Shown one piece after another: positions 10,553 to 15,183 of a DNA stretch of 64,000 nt (its first letter is position 1; the number at the start of each line of letters is the position of its first letter). This stretch comes from Streptomyces formicae (GTDB lineage: Bacteria; Actinomycetota; Actinomycetes; Streptomycetales; Streptomycetaceae): contig NZ_CP022685.1 in the NCBI RefSeq assembly GCF_002556545.1, forward strand, positions 248,001 to 312,000, given 5' to 3'. Under the pieces are notes generated by a model that searched no databases, was not told the DNA's origin, and saw only the letters and a program-made list of their open reading frames with translations. A program made the translations under genes and the position numbers.

Positions 10553-12724
10553 TCAGGAGCTCCTGAGGACGACCAGTCGCTGCGTCGCACGGGTCATCGC
10601 GACGTAGCGGTCGACCGCCCCTTCGATGCCCGCGCCGAACTCCTCCGGGTCGACGAGGACGACCAGGTCGAACTCGAGTCCCTTCGTCAGCTCCGGAGGC
10701 AGCGACCTGACCCGGGGCGTCGCAGGGAACGAGGGATCACCGATCACACAGGCGATGCCGTCGTCGTTCGCGGCGAGCCAGGTCTTCAGGACCGCGTCCC
10801 GTTCCGCGAGGGACCCGTGCACGACGGGGATGCCGCTGCCGCGGATCGAGGTCGGCACGTTGGCGTCGGGCAGCACGGCCCGGATGGCCGGTTCGGCCTC
10901 CGCCATGACCTCTTGCGGCGTGCGGTAGTTGATGCTCAGGGACGCCATCTCGACCCGGTCCAGCCCGATCCGCTCAAGACGTTCCTGCCAGGACTCGGTG
11001 AACCCGTGCCTGGCCTGCGCCCGGTCCCCGACGATCGTGAAGCTCCGGGAGGGGCAGCGCAGCAACAGCATCTGCCACTCGGCGTCGGTCAGTTCCTGTG
11101 CCTCGTCCACCACGATGTGCGCGAAGGGTCCCGCCAGCAGATCCGGGTCCGCGGGCGGCAGTTCGGACTCGTCGACCAGGCTGACCCGGGCGTCCTGCCC
11201 GCGCAGCATCCTCACCAGGCCCTCGCCGTCGTCCCCGTCGGCGCCCGAGTCGGACGCGGCGTCGATCAGGTTGTCGACGACCTGCGACATCCGCTCGCGC
11301 TGCGCGGCGAGGATCGCCGCCTGCCGCCGCTTGTGCCGGGCGGCCTCCGGGTCGCCGAGCCGCTGGCGCGCCGCGTCCAGGAGCGGCAGGTCGGACACCG
11401 TCCATGCCTGCGGAGCCTCCTTGCGCCCCAGCTTGCGCACCTCGTCCGCGTCGAGCCAAGGGGCGCACATTCGCAGATAGGCGGGGACCGTCCACAGGTC
11501 GGAGACCAGGTCGGCCGCTTCGAGCAGCGGCCAAGCGCGGTGCAGCGCCGTGACGAGCTCCTCGTCGTGCCGCAGCTGCCGCTCGAAGAGTTCGGCGGGC
11601 ACGTCGTCGCCGACCTTGGCCAGGAGGATCTCGACGAGTTCCTCCCAGACCTGCTCGCGTCCCTCGTTGTGCGGGGTGCCGGGGCCCGGTGCGTCGAACG
11701 CCTCGGCCCAGTCCGCGGCGCTCAGCCGGACGTCGGCCCAGTCGGTCGAGACCGTCATCGCCTCCGTCGGCGGCTCCTCGTAGAACCTGACGGCCTTCTC
11801 GATCGCGCGCACCATGCCCGCGTCCGACTTCAGCCGCGCCACCTCCGGGTCGGCCTCCTCCGCCGCCGTGGCCCCTTCGGCGACGAGGTCACGGACCGTG
11901 CAGGTCTGCACGCCCTCCTCACCGAGGCTGGGCAGGACGTCCTCGACGTACGACAGGTAGGGCTGGTGCGGTCCGACGAACAGCACGCCGCCCTTGCGGT
12001 GGCCCAGGCGCGGGTCGGAGTACAGCAGGTGGGCGGTCCTGTGCAGCGCGACGACGGTCTTGCCCGTGCCGGGGCCGCCGTCGACGACGAGCGCGCCGCG
12101 CGATCCGGCGCGGATGATGGCGTCCTGGTCGGCCTGGATGGTGCCGAGCACGTCCCGCATCCGGTCGGAGCGGTTGCCGCCGAGGCTCGCGATGAACGCG
12201 GACTGGTCGTCGAGCGCGGCATGCCCTTCGAGGCCGTCGGCGGTGAACACCTCGTCCCAGTAGTCGCCGATCCTGCCGCGCGTCCAGCGGTACCTGCGGC
12301 GGCTCACGAGCCCCATGGGGTGGGCGTGGGTCGCGGCGAAGAACGGCTCGGCCGCGGGCGAGCGCCAGTCGATCAGGAGGCGGCGCCCTGAGCTGTCGGT
12401 GAGGCCGAGCCGTCCGATGTACACGGGCTCGGGGTCGTCAGCGGCGACGAAGTGGCCGAGGCAGAGGTCGAGCCCGAAGCGGCGCAGGGCGCGCAGCCTG
12501 CCGGTCAGCCGGTGGATCTCGGTGTCCCGGTCCATCGCCGCCCTGCCGGTGCCGCCGGGCGCCTTGCGCACGGTCTCCAGGGCGTCGGACACTTCGGCGA
12601 TCGTGCGCTCCAGGCTCTCCGCGACGGCGGCGAAGTGCCGCTCGTCGGCGTCGATGAGCCGCGGGTCGGCCTTGGGCGCGAGGTGGTCGGGAAGGTCGAA
12701 GGCGCTGGTGCTCAGGGGGGTCAT
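10553..12724 (-). CDS. helR: RNA polymerase recycling ATPase HelR (HelD-like, rifamycin resistance)
   Basis: A 723-residue UvrD/Rep-like superfamily 1 ATPase of the HelD/HelR group. The Walker A is VVDGGPGTGKTVVALH, Walker B HIVVDEAQELTD, and VAMTRATQRLVVL is helicase motif VI. The N-terminal helical arm region (residues 1-110), with LTGRLRALRRFGLDLCLGHFV, is the part that inserts into RNA polymerase channels in HelD proteins. In Streptomyces, HelR dissociates stalled or drug-bound RNA polymerase and confers rifamycin tolerance. An RAE-like element lies about 140 bases upstream of the start, which strongly supports the HelR rather than generic HelD assignment. GGAG lies about 9 bases before the ATG. 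Confidence 0.88.
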   Translation of the reverse strand: MTPLSTSAFDLPDHLAPKADPRLIDADERHFAAVAESLERTIAEVSDALETVRKAPGGTGRAAMDRDTEIHRLTGRLRALRRFGLDLCLGHFVAADDPEPVYIGRLGLTDSSGRRLLIDWRSPAAEPFFAATHAHPMGLVSRRRYRWTRGRIGDYWDEVFTADGLEGHAALDDQSAFIASLGGNRSDRMRDVLGTIQADQDAIIRAGSRGALVVDGGPGTGKTVVALHRTAHLLYSDPRLGHRKGGVLFVGPHQPYLSYVEDVLPSLGEEGVQTCTVRDLVAEGATAAEEADPEVARLKSDAGMVRAIEKAVRFYEEPPTEAMTVSTDWADVRLSAADWAEAFDAPGPGTPHNEGREQVWEELVEILLAKVGDDVPAELFERQLRHDEELVTALHRAWPLLEAADLVSDLWTVPAYLRMCAPWLDADEVRKLGRKEAPQAWTVSDLPLLDAARQRLGDPEAARHKRRQAAILAAQRERMSQVVDNLIDAASDSGADGDDGEGLVRMLRGQDARVSLVDESELPPADPDLLAGPFAHIVVDEAQELTDAEWQMLLLRCPSRSFTIVGDRAQARHGFTESWQERLERIGLDRVEMASLSINYRTPQEVMAEAEPAIRAVLPDANVPTSIRGSGIPVVHGSLAERDAVLKTWLAANDDGIACVIGDPSFPATPRVRSLPPELTKGLEFDLVVLVDPEEFGAGIEGAVDRYVAMTRATQRLVVLRSS

Positions 12725-12863
12725 GGAATCAGCTCCGATCCGAGGTCGTACCCGCGAAGTCCGGCGTCACGCACGCCCCGAAGACCGACAAAAGCTCATG
12801 CACTGAGTGAATCTCCCATTTCCGCGAGTTCTGGCCTCGGCGAGAGATTCTGCGGCACCACGG

Positions 12864-12882
12864 GGGCCTTGCCGCAAGCCCC
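12864..12882 (-). promoter_or_regulatory. Rifamycin-associated element (RAE) upstream of helR
   Basis: On the minus strand this reads GGGGCTTGCGGCAAGGCCC, a 19-base near-palindrome that matches my recollection of the RAE found before rifamycin-inactivating and helR genes in actinomycetes. The palindrome extends slightly as G- and C-runs on both sides (12862-12884). It lies in the 278-bp gap between helR (starts at 12724) and the next leftward gene (ends at 13003), so helR is its only sensible target. Just upstream on the same strand is TATAGC, a possible -10. Confidence 0.85.
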
Positions 12883-13002
12883 CCTGTGCGCTATAAGTTG
12901 AGAGTGGAAAGGAGTGGGTACTCCTCTTTTCCCTTGATCATCACCCTCTTCGCGCCGTTGCGCGCTTCTCCTGACCCGTCGCTTGACGCGTCGCTGTGGG
13001 AC

Positions 13003-15183
13003 TCAGCTGTCCTCAGCGGGCATCTCCTGGGCGTCGTCACCGAGGGCCAGTGCGAGGCCCGTGCCGGTGTCGCTCTCGCCTCGGCGCAGGGCCCGCGCGT
13101 ACGCCTGCGATCCGATGCCCGCGCGGGCCAGCTGTTCCGTCCTGGCGCGCAGCGGCGCCAACTCCGGTGTGCCGCGCTGGGGATGGCCGACATTGCGCCA
13201 GTACGCGTGTCCCGTACCGGAGAGCAGTGCCGCCTGCTCGGCCCGGCCCTGCGCCGCCGATGCCGCGGCGAGCAGGTCGAGGCCCAGGGCGATGCCGAAG
13301 CTGTCGCCGATGCGCTGCTTGCCCAGGAGCATGGCACGGGCGTGCTCGGCCGCCTCGTGCGGCCGGTCCTGGAAGAGCGCGATCAGGGCCAGCTGGTAGT
13401 CCAGGTAGGACCGGGTCCAGTGCTCGTCGATCCGCTCGCAGACGGCCCGCAGCTCGCGCGCCGACTCCATCGCCTCGTCGAGGGCGCCGAGCGCGGTGAG
13501 GGCGAAGACGACGACCAGGCGGCAGCGCAGCCGCGATGCCGAGGCGAAGTCCTCGCCGGGCACCTCCTCCAGGGCGCGCAGCGCCAGCGCACGGGCGACC
13601 AGGGGGCGGCCGGTGAGCAGGTACGTGATGCCCCGCAGGTATCCGGCCGCGAGCACGCCCTGTCCGTCGCCGTCCCGCGCGGCCTCGCGCGCGCAGATCT
13701 CACCGAGCCGTTCCGCGGTATCGTGCTGGCCCTGCAACAGCGCGGCGACGCCGAGGGCCAGTTGGGCGCGGGTGTGGACGGGGCCCGGCTCGTGGTGGAG
13801 GGCGAGGCCGCGCTCCAAGTAGGTGCGCGCCTCGTGGAGATGGCCGCAGCAGCTCCAGAAGAAGGCCACGCGGCTGACCAGTTCGAGGCCGTCGGCGGGG
13901 GCGCGGTCGAGCAGGTGGTGCAGGGCCGCGCACAGGTCGGCGTGGGCCTCGCCGACGCGCCGGTACCAGTGCGTCTGCCGGGGGCCCAGCCACTCGGCGT
14001 CGGCGCGCCGCGCGAGGTTGAGGAAGCACTCCGCGTGGCGGTCGGCGAGGAGCTCCTCCTCGCCCAGCTCCGCCAGCCACATGCGGCCGTACTCCTTGAG
14101 CGTGTCGAGCATGTGGTAGCGCGGCCCGTCCCGCCCGACCACCGACTGCCGCACCAGGCCGGTGAGCGCCCACGCCACCCCTCTGCGCGTCAAGGGCCCG
14201 CCCGCGCCGACCGCTTGGGCGATGCCGAGGTCGAACGGGCCCCGCAGCACGGAGAGCCGCGCCCACAGCAGCCGCTCCCCCGGGGTGCACAGCTCGTGGC
14301 TCCAGCCGATCGTCGTACGCAGGCTCTGGTGCCGGGGCGGCCGCACCCGCGGCGCGCCGGTGAGCTCGGCGAGCCGGGAGCCGAGCCCCTCGGCGAGACT
14401 GCGCACGCTGCGGTGGCGCAGTTGCCCGCCCGCCAGCTCCAGGGCGAGCGGAATGCCTTCGAGACGCTCGCACACCTCGGCGGCGTCGGCCGCCCAGTCC
14501 GGGGATTCCAGGGTCTGGCGGGGGACGAAGCGGGCGGCACGGTCGGTGAACAGGCGCAGTGCGTCGGAGTGTGCGGCCGTACGACCTGCGGGCGCGGGCT
14601 CCACGGCCGCCGCTCCGTTGCTCGTCGGCCCGCCTCCGGTCGGCCCGTCCCCCATCGGTCCCCCGCCCGTGCCTCCGTCGCCCGGCTGCCGGTCCGTCGC
14701 CGGTCCGACCGGCAGGGGCTCCACGTCGAGGACGCACTCGACGGAGAGCAGGAGCGGTTGCCTGCTGGTCGCGAGGACGGTCAGGCCGGGGGCGGCGGAG
14801 AGTAGCTCGCCGATCAACCGGCGGCACTGGTCGGTCAGATGCTCGCAGGAGTCGAGGACGAGCAGCAGGTGCCTGTCGCGCAGCCAGGACCGCAGCGCGT
14901 CCACCGGCATCCGGGGGGTGTGGTCGGCGAGGCCCACGGCGTCGCACACCGTCGCGGTCAGCAGGTGGTCGTCCATGAGCGGGGACAGGTCGGCCCAGCA
15001 CACCCCGTCGCGGTACCCGGTCCCTGCCCGGACGGCGCCCCGTACGGCGAGGCGGGTCTTGCCGACGCCGCCCATGCCGGTCAGGGTCACCAGGCGGTGC
15101 GCCGCCAGCGATGCGCCGAGCCGTCGCAGATCCGCCTCGCGCCCCACGAAACTGGTCTTCTCCTCAGGAACCTTTCCTTCCAT
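13003..15183 (-). CDS. AfsR/LuxR-like NTPase with TPR-type repeats, no visible DNA-binding domain
   Basis: A 726-residue STAND-type ATPase. It opens with TSFVGREADLRRLGASL and LVTLTGMGGVGKTRLAV (Walker A) and has HLLLVLDSCEHL (Walker B), the layout of the NB-ARC-like domain in Streptomyces SARP and LuxR regulators. From about residue 450 it is helical and TPR-like (HLHEARTYLERGLALH, RAREL-type repeats). Unlike most relatives there is no N-terminal SARP domain and no C-terminal LuxR HTH; it ends in a short acidic tail. It may be a signalling ATPase or a regulator that has lost its output domain. It is read toward helR but separated by 278 bp. Confidence 0.75.
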   Translation of the reverse strand: MEGKVPEEKTSFVGREADLRRLGASLAAHRLVTLTGMGGVGKTRLAVRGAVRAGTGYRDGVCWADLSPLMDDHLLTATVCDAVGLADHTPRMPVDALRSWLRDRHLLLVLDSCEHLTDQCRRLIGELLSAAPGLTVLATSRQPLLLSVECVLDVEPLPVGPATDRQPGDGGTGGGPMGDGPTGGGPTSNGAAAVEPAPAGRTAAHSDALRLFTDRAARFVPRQTLESPDWAADAAEVCERLEGIPLALELAGGQLRHRSVRSLAEGLGSRLAELTGAPRVRPPRHQSLRTTIGWSHELCTPGERLLWARLSVLRGPFDLGIAQAVGAGGPLTRRGVAWALTGLVRQSVVGRDGPRYHMLDTLKEYGRMWLAELGEEELLADRHAECFLNLARRADAEWLGPRQTHWYRRVGEAHADLCAALHHLLDRAPADGLELVSRVAFFWSCCGHLHEARTYLERGLALHHEPGPVHTRAQLALGVAALLQGQHDTAERLGEICAREAARDGDGQGVLAAGYLRGITYLLTGRPLVARALALRALEEVPGEDFASASRLRCRLVVVFALTALGALDEAMESARELRAVCERIDEHWTRSYLDYQLALIALFQDRPHEAAEHARAMLLGKQRIGDSFGIALGLDLLAAASAAQGRAEQAALLSGTGHAYWRNVGHPQRGTPELAPLRARTEQLARAGIGSQAYARALRRGESDTGTGLALALGDDAQEMPAEDS

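Follow-up and report, generated by a model that had tools for sequence, protein, structure and literature searches.

The window analysed here is a 64,000-nt stretch of Streptomyces formicae DNA (NZ_CP022685.1, positions 248,001–312,000, forward strand; assembly GCF_002556545.1). It holds one copy of the RAE, a 19-base near-palindrome, at a distance of 139 nt from the start of a HelD-type gene (Table 1). The sequence GGGGCTTGCGGCAAGGCCC, which we take to be the RAE consensus, is matched with zero mismatches and is the version of the element found repeatedly ahead of rox, helR, rgt and rph. This is the sole RAE site in the window at three or fewer mismatches, and shuffled sequences average 0.06 matches; it is reported on both strands because the element is nearly palindromic. 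The initial annotation had placed an RAE at this position, and the exact match, above chance in shuffles, bears this out. The RAE of actinobacterial rifamycin-resistance genes has reportedly been described in 2014 by Spanogiannopoulos and in 2022 by Surette and by Hurst-Hess.

The gene downstream had been read as a HelD-type ATPase, helR. Its product scores 1274.5 bits against the NCBIfam model NF041254 (motor_HelR), where the cut-off is 750, which confirms the family assignment. The only PDB sequence matched at E ≤ 1e-20 is HelD of M. smegmatis (6yxu_H, E 6.9e-99). The match to this class II HelD/HelR family (M. smegmatis HelD, 6YXU) is full-length, and nothing unusual was seen in the protein. 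The element thus lies directly upstream of a rifamycin-resistance gene. According to the available text of two reports, RAEs mark rifamycin-induced genes (PMC10719064, PMC8655204), and helD genes that bear an RAE group as helR (PMC8655204). Taken alone, the RAE in the window is a new copy of a known element.

Table 1. Coordinates of the RAE, of helR and of the putative promoter and hairpin features in the window
Feature	Position	Strand	Basis
RAE, near-palindrome of 19 bases that would provide the -35 region to both opposed putative promoters	12864–12882	-	Exact match and conservation
helR, probable RNA polymerase recycling/protection ATPase by family, 723 aa	10553–12724	-	NF041254, PDB match
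P2 -35 (putative), TTGCGG, RAE bases 6–11	12872–12877	-	TTG in 46/46 helR-set sites; mycobacterial helD promoter 2 (PMC10719064, available text)
P2 -10 (putative promoter), CAGAAT, 19-bp spacer	12847–12852	-	NANNNT in 46/46 helR-set and 56/59 distant sites
P2 transcription start, approximate, inferred from distance to -10	12839–12841	-	Geometry
PAS -35 (putative), TTGCCG, 3-bp overlap with P2 -35	12869–12874	+	TTG in 46/46 helR-set sites
PAS -10 (putative), TAAGTT, 19-bp spacer, mirror of P2 -10	12894–12899	+	TANNNT in 45/46 helR-set and 57/59 distant sites
Terminator-like hairpin at inferred PAS start; shorter stem 12910–12925, then CTTTTCCCTT	12906–12932	+	Fold, -11.4 kcal/mol
TATAGC, largely made up of the PAS -10 and its upstream bases read on the opposite strand	12890–12895	-	Set comparison

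Some minor features surround the element. The helR leader has a 10-codon ORF (ATG...TGA, positions 12767–12799, minus strand) in the helR frame, which ends 42 nt before helR; in orthologues, the start of helR is often at about the same distance from the RAE. Upstream of helR is a gene (13003–15183, minus strand) for an NB-ARC/STAND-type ATPase with weak TPR similarity. Its product is related to FxSxx-TPR and AfsR proteins, with scores below their cut-offs. An Rfam scan of positions 12600–13100 gave no match at E ≤ 1.

Distribution of the RAE and the genes behind it

The whole-genome search proposed by the initial annotation was carried out on the 9.61 Mb host genome, which is a single contig, and yields three RAE sites with 0–1 mismatch. 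They precede helR, a rifampin monooxygenase gene (rox; 842.2 bits, cut-off 800) and an Rgt-like glycosyltransferase gene (627.1 bits, below the cut-off of 800). All three are in the outer 5% of the contig, at 0.21, 0.26 and 9.41 Mb. A true RAE before a true helR, together with two further RAEs at rox and the Rgt-like gene, makes an inducible rifamycin-tolerance unit likely, as had been suggested from the window alone.

The pattern GGSSCTTGCGGCAAGSSCC has 83 sites in 48 of 61 genomes of the genus, versus 4 sites for the pattern reversed. Across 396 genomes of the phylum there are 32 sites, in 23 genomes, versus 7 for the reversed pattern. Twelve genomes of the same genus are included in the phylum set; in nine of these the element and a helR match occur together, and in three both are absent.

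HelR protein matches were found in 57 of 148 genomes of the class at E ≤ 1e-100. Upstream stretches of 54 of these were compared, leaving out G554 and two 41% paralogues (G097 and G133). An RAE with up to four mismatches is located within about 600 nt directly upstream in 46 of the 54 protein-chosen orthologues (the helR set, or set B), and with 0–1 mismatch in 36; composition shuffles of the same stretches (20 each) gave an RAE-like match in 15 of 1080. Two more orthologues (L228 and L237) have an exact RAE before rgt with helR as the second gene, 1369 and 1432 nt downstream of the element, in apparent rgt-helR operons. The remaining six show no RAE within 600–1500 nt upstream. The element is thus conserved in helR orthologues, in 46 directly and in two via the operon.

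Two other sets, which overlap with set B, were also compiled. Set A consists of 169 sites, mainly from the host genus, which were chosen and oriented using a profile that had both of the -10 elements described below as its seed. Set C has 59 distant sites hand-picked from taxa outside the host genus, with ten pattern matches that have no such block left out. An ORF could be called downstream of 161 of the 169 set A sites, and these fall into four clusters: rox (59), helR (53), rgt (28) and rph (21). One representative protein per cluster was scanned against families, and that of rgt scores 536.8 bits, below the cut-off of 800. At 36 further sites the downstream genes are of the same four families in 29 cases and arr in six, all six Arr proteins scoring above the NF033144 cut-off; one site has no ORF.

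The element is also present outside the Actinobacteria. In the gammaproteobacterium Vulcaniibacterium tengchongense (L202:2937–2955) it precedes rox, and in the alphaproteobacterium Aerophototrophica crusticola (L151:4874–4892) it precedes an arr gene. Two sites assigned to Chloroflexi come from metagenome bins, and their placement may be wrong. A plasmid search with Rox gave 115 records, 62 from Streptomyces and 40 from Sinorhizobium; the weaker matches are about 43–47% identical.

Two opposed putative promoters centred on the RAE

The motif TTGCSG is present in both orientations inside the RAE, and each copy has a -10 hexamer exactly 19 bp away. The two putative promoters so formed stand back to back. 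P2, the sense promoter, points to the gene and has a -10 of the form NANNNT, mostly CANNNT; PAS, the antisense promoter, points away from it and has TANNNT. When the element is numbered 1–19 on the gene strand, the nearly fixed positions outside it are bases 31–36 (sense NANNNT) and bases -11 to -16 (antisense TANNNT). Both hexamers are thus 21–26 bp from the element centre, at mirror positions. In mycobacteria, the RAE is described as overlapping the -35 of the downstream helD promoter, promoter 2 (PMC10719064, available text).

Both hexamers are kept in the protein-chosen helR set and in the distant set (Table 1). As the set A profile was seeded on both -10 elements, its 169/169 is circular, and the unselected evidence comes from a census of 214 unique sites, i.e., every available site found by the RAE pattern alone. 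Both hexamers are present in one orientation at 199 of the 214, only one is present at three and neither at 12. Shifting both -10 windows by 1, 2, 3 or 4 bp either way reduces the count to 0/214. The 12 sites with neither hexamer are the ten pattern matches without any block, L082, and L151, the arr site of A. crusticola, where neither -10 is in the expected place. Both are kept before the rox gene of V. tengchongense. Similarly, both are found at all three host sites with 0–1 mismatch, and the three examined host sites with 2–3 mismatches (L004–L006, among the matches listed) are without them.

A hexamer scan from -85 to +109 around the RAE shows antisense TANNNT peaking only at the PAS -10 position; the next best position reaches at most 0.05 in each of the three sets. 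In the distant set the inner bases of this hexamer are free (TATCCT, TATGGT, TACGTT, TAAACT and others) and T-A---T is kept. As judged from sequence, this pattern of variation is that of a real -10. The outer arms of the RAE are also conserved beyond the two -35s, with GGG in 44 of 46 and CCC in 39 of 46 helR-set sites.

A simple sigma-70 scan with 16–18 bp spacers and at least 9/12 matches finds no promoter in positions 12600–13100. In the window, P2 and PAS each have 7 of 12 positions in agreement with the E. coli consensus (4+3 in PAS, 3+4 in P2), and their spacers are long. The first -10 base is T at 45 of 46 PAS and 0 of 46 P2 hexamers in the helR set. The consensus counts give no support to PAS being plainly the stronger promoter; with equal matches in the window, the order of strength is not readable from the sequence. 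Within the P2 spacer, bases 22–30 after the RAE start (approximately GTCGTGCCG) are conserved in Streptomyces (set A) and not in distant taxa.

A terminator-like hairpin at the putative antisense start

The hairpin listed in Table 1 is the only terminator-like site in positions 12600–13100, where shuffles give 0.1. The corresponding folds of the other host copies are more stable, with values of -20.1 kcal/mol (rgt) and -15.6 kcal/mol (rox). In set A, a hairpin anchored at the inferred PAS start scores at least 6 in 133 of 168 sites versus 2.6% of composition shuffles, and the mean T fraction in the next 9 bases is 0.61, versus a local background of 0.16. The stems show paired changes, e.g., C-G to A-T and A-T to G-C, but the count of such changes leans to structure because the sites were fitted to structure. 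Thus, at most sites of the host genus the putative PAS leads directly into a terminator-like hairpin that has a T-rich tail. At distant sites a hairpin score of at least 7 is found in 11 of 59 (shuffles, 3%). As the hairpin is not general in distant taxa, the antisense promoter would be the constant part of the block and the immediate terminator an option.

Candidate mechanisms and comparison with Bacillus subtilis

The window copy agrees with the known RAE in being a 19-base palindrome before helR that covers the sense -35; rox and an Rgt-like gene are also preceded by copies. It differs from the published description, as far as the available text goes, in two additions: a putative mirror-image antisense promoter whose spacer is 19 bp long and, in the host genus, a terminator-like hairpin. 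The available parts of PMC10719064, PMC8655204 and PMC12802891 do not describe an antisense promoter in the RAE block, and an earlier description in the original RAE and HelR studies is possible. So far as the cited literature goes, the putative antisense promoter inside the RAE module is new. It offers a specific and testable explanation of how soil bacteria might turn resistance genes on.

In M. abscessus the RAE is needed for induction, and deletion of half of it abolished induction (PMC10719064, available text). Such a deletion should damage both putative promoters, which would be a second reason for the lost induction. The same available text states that the regulator acting on the RAE is unknown.

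The reading that we favor, at about an even chance of being correct, is that the RAE lies at the centre of two promoters that overlap and exclude each other, and that rifamycin shifts RNA polymerase from PAS to P2, with a contribution from a protein that recognizes the RAE. P2 and PAS would both be housekeeping-sigma promoters. Since their -35s overlap by 3 bp, the geometry implies that RNA polymerase uses one or the other at a time. Polymerase on PAS would produce an unproductive transcript of some 35 nt and hold P2 low; rifamycin would tip the choice to P2 and raise expression of helR, rox, rgt, rph or arr. In a pure mutual-exclusion model, P2 never rises above its drug-free level (maximum ratio 1.0 over the grid tried). 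Exclusion alone therefore gives no net induction, and a further factor would be needed, either an additional state or a protein that acts on the palindrome. The outer palindrome arms are conserved though neither promoter should need them, which favors a protein that sees the whole RAE. This putative protein would act together with the competition between PAS and P2.

A search for such a regulator covered 122 loci, i.e., 119 named loci (among the matches listed) and the three of the host. The ORF clusters consist of resistance genes and their shadow frames, together with an SDR-like family in 12 loci; ORFs were chosen by a composition filter alone, so small regulators may be missed. A sigma-factor-like ORF, recognized by eye, recurs in 5 of the 122. 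No other recurring regulator was recognized beside the RAE in these loci by ORF clustering, and no regulator gene was found among the RAE target genes. We know of no protein that binds the RAE. In the host, a sigma-factor-like ORF (by eye) is located just upstream of rox (L003:294–1388, plus strand).

The Bacillus subtilis helD and pps genes offer a comparison. There, convergent promoters precede the gene and the stronger, antisense one provides rifampicin inducibility; it has a 19-bp spacer and its own terminator, and shortening the distance makes the polymerases exclude each other and abolishes induction (PMC12802891, available text). The RAE module shares with this alarm, at the sequence level, an antisense promoter close to a sense promoter before helD, a 19-bp antisense spacer and rifampicin-resistance targets. 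The B. subtilis antisense transcript is terminated (PMC12802891, available text); here a terminator-like hairpin is present in the window and in the set A sites noted above, and is weak or absent in most distant taxa. The geometry is different. In B. subtilis the promoters are convergent and have 39 bp between their starts according to the same available text, whereas those of the RAE module are back to back with putative starts about 66 bp apart and overlapping -35s, and are not convergent promoters that can be jointly occupied. The RAE module is therefore like the Bacillus alarm in outline and is not a member of it. The available text of PMC12802891 holds that the actinobacterial RAE genes are not regulated as in B. 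subtilis and that the RAE mechanism is unresolved.

A more far-reaching proposal is that RNA polymerase alone is the sensor, in an actinobacterial version of the Bacillus dual-promoter alarm in which rifamycin-bound polymerase stalls preferentially at PAS and frees P2. In that case the RAE would not be an operator but a -35 hub common to both directions of a bidirectional promoter, and rifamycin would be sensed by way of RNA polymerase itself; the module would have an origin independent of that in Bacillus and would work wherever it is carried. The antisense 19-bp spacer with its own terminator in the host genus, as in B. subtilis (PMC12802891, available text), is in accord with this, as are the lack of a regulator among RAE targets, with only the sigma-like ORF recurring beside them, and the retention of both -10s before the Vulcaniibacterium rox gene, where an unlinked actinobacterial regulator would be missing. 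However, PAS fires away from P2, so that there is no elongating polymerase to interfere, and neither the ceiling on P2 output under mutual exclusion nor the conserved outer arms agree with polymerase as the only sensor. We consider this proposal possible but rather unlikely. If it is true, Actinobacteria and Bacillus have independently reached a 19-bp-spacer antisense promoter as a rifamycin detector, in two geometries.

The reading given in the available text of both PMC10719064 and PMC12802891 is simpler, namely a rifamycin-responsive repressor or activator bound to the RAE over the P2 -35, with the antisense -10 being incidental or part of the binding site. A 19-bp palindrome over a promoter -35 is the classic operator layout. 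Such an operator does not account for T-A---T being held at a constant mirror distance while its inner bases vary, nor for the hairpin and T-rich tail that most of the host genus has at the antisense start; as a complete account it appears improbable.

Two other arrangements were considered and rejected. A MerR-type operator was suggested by the 19-bp spacers. In operators of the MerR family the palindrome lies inside the promoter spacer, and here it is centred outside the spacer, near -33 of P2. An attenuator in the sense leader, based on complementarity of the P2 leader to the RAE (TGCGGCA/TGCCGCA), was set aside because the RAE comes before the point at which P2 transcription would start; in addition, a third pairing block is broken in the host rgt and rox copies, as seen by eye.

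Finally, the initial annotation had read TATAGC as a possible -10 of a sense promoter that would start at or near the RAE, making the RAE a roadblock or leader hairpin; the sequence is indeed present, in M. smegmatis a second promoter in the sense direction lies about 20 bp ahead of the RAE (PMC10719064, available text) and published accounts place the RAE in the 5' UTR, yet this reading is very improbable in view of the following comparison. TATAGC is kept in 36 of 46 helR-set sites and in 15 of 59 distant sites (lost in 10 and 44), versus 45 and 57 for antisense TANNNT. As TANNNT is kept with varied inner bases where TATAGC is lost, the conserved hexamer looks like an antisense -10 rather than a sense one. 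The sixth base of TATAGC is C, not T, in 167 of 169, 40 of 46 and 51 of 59 sites of the three overlapping sets, and there is no -35 for it. For the neighbouring sense CANNNT, no spacing from 15 to 20 bp has an upstream TTG in more than 1 of 45 and 1 of 59 sites. The hint of polymerase sensing that accompanied the TATAGC reading pointed in the right direction, and the roadblock in the leader did not hold; the anatomy appears to be that of an opposed promoter pair. The PAS hexamer is symmetric and also reads as sense CANNNT (CANNNTA) at -17 to -12 in 37 of 46 and 58 of 59 sites, and a weak sense start from the back of it is possible.
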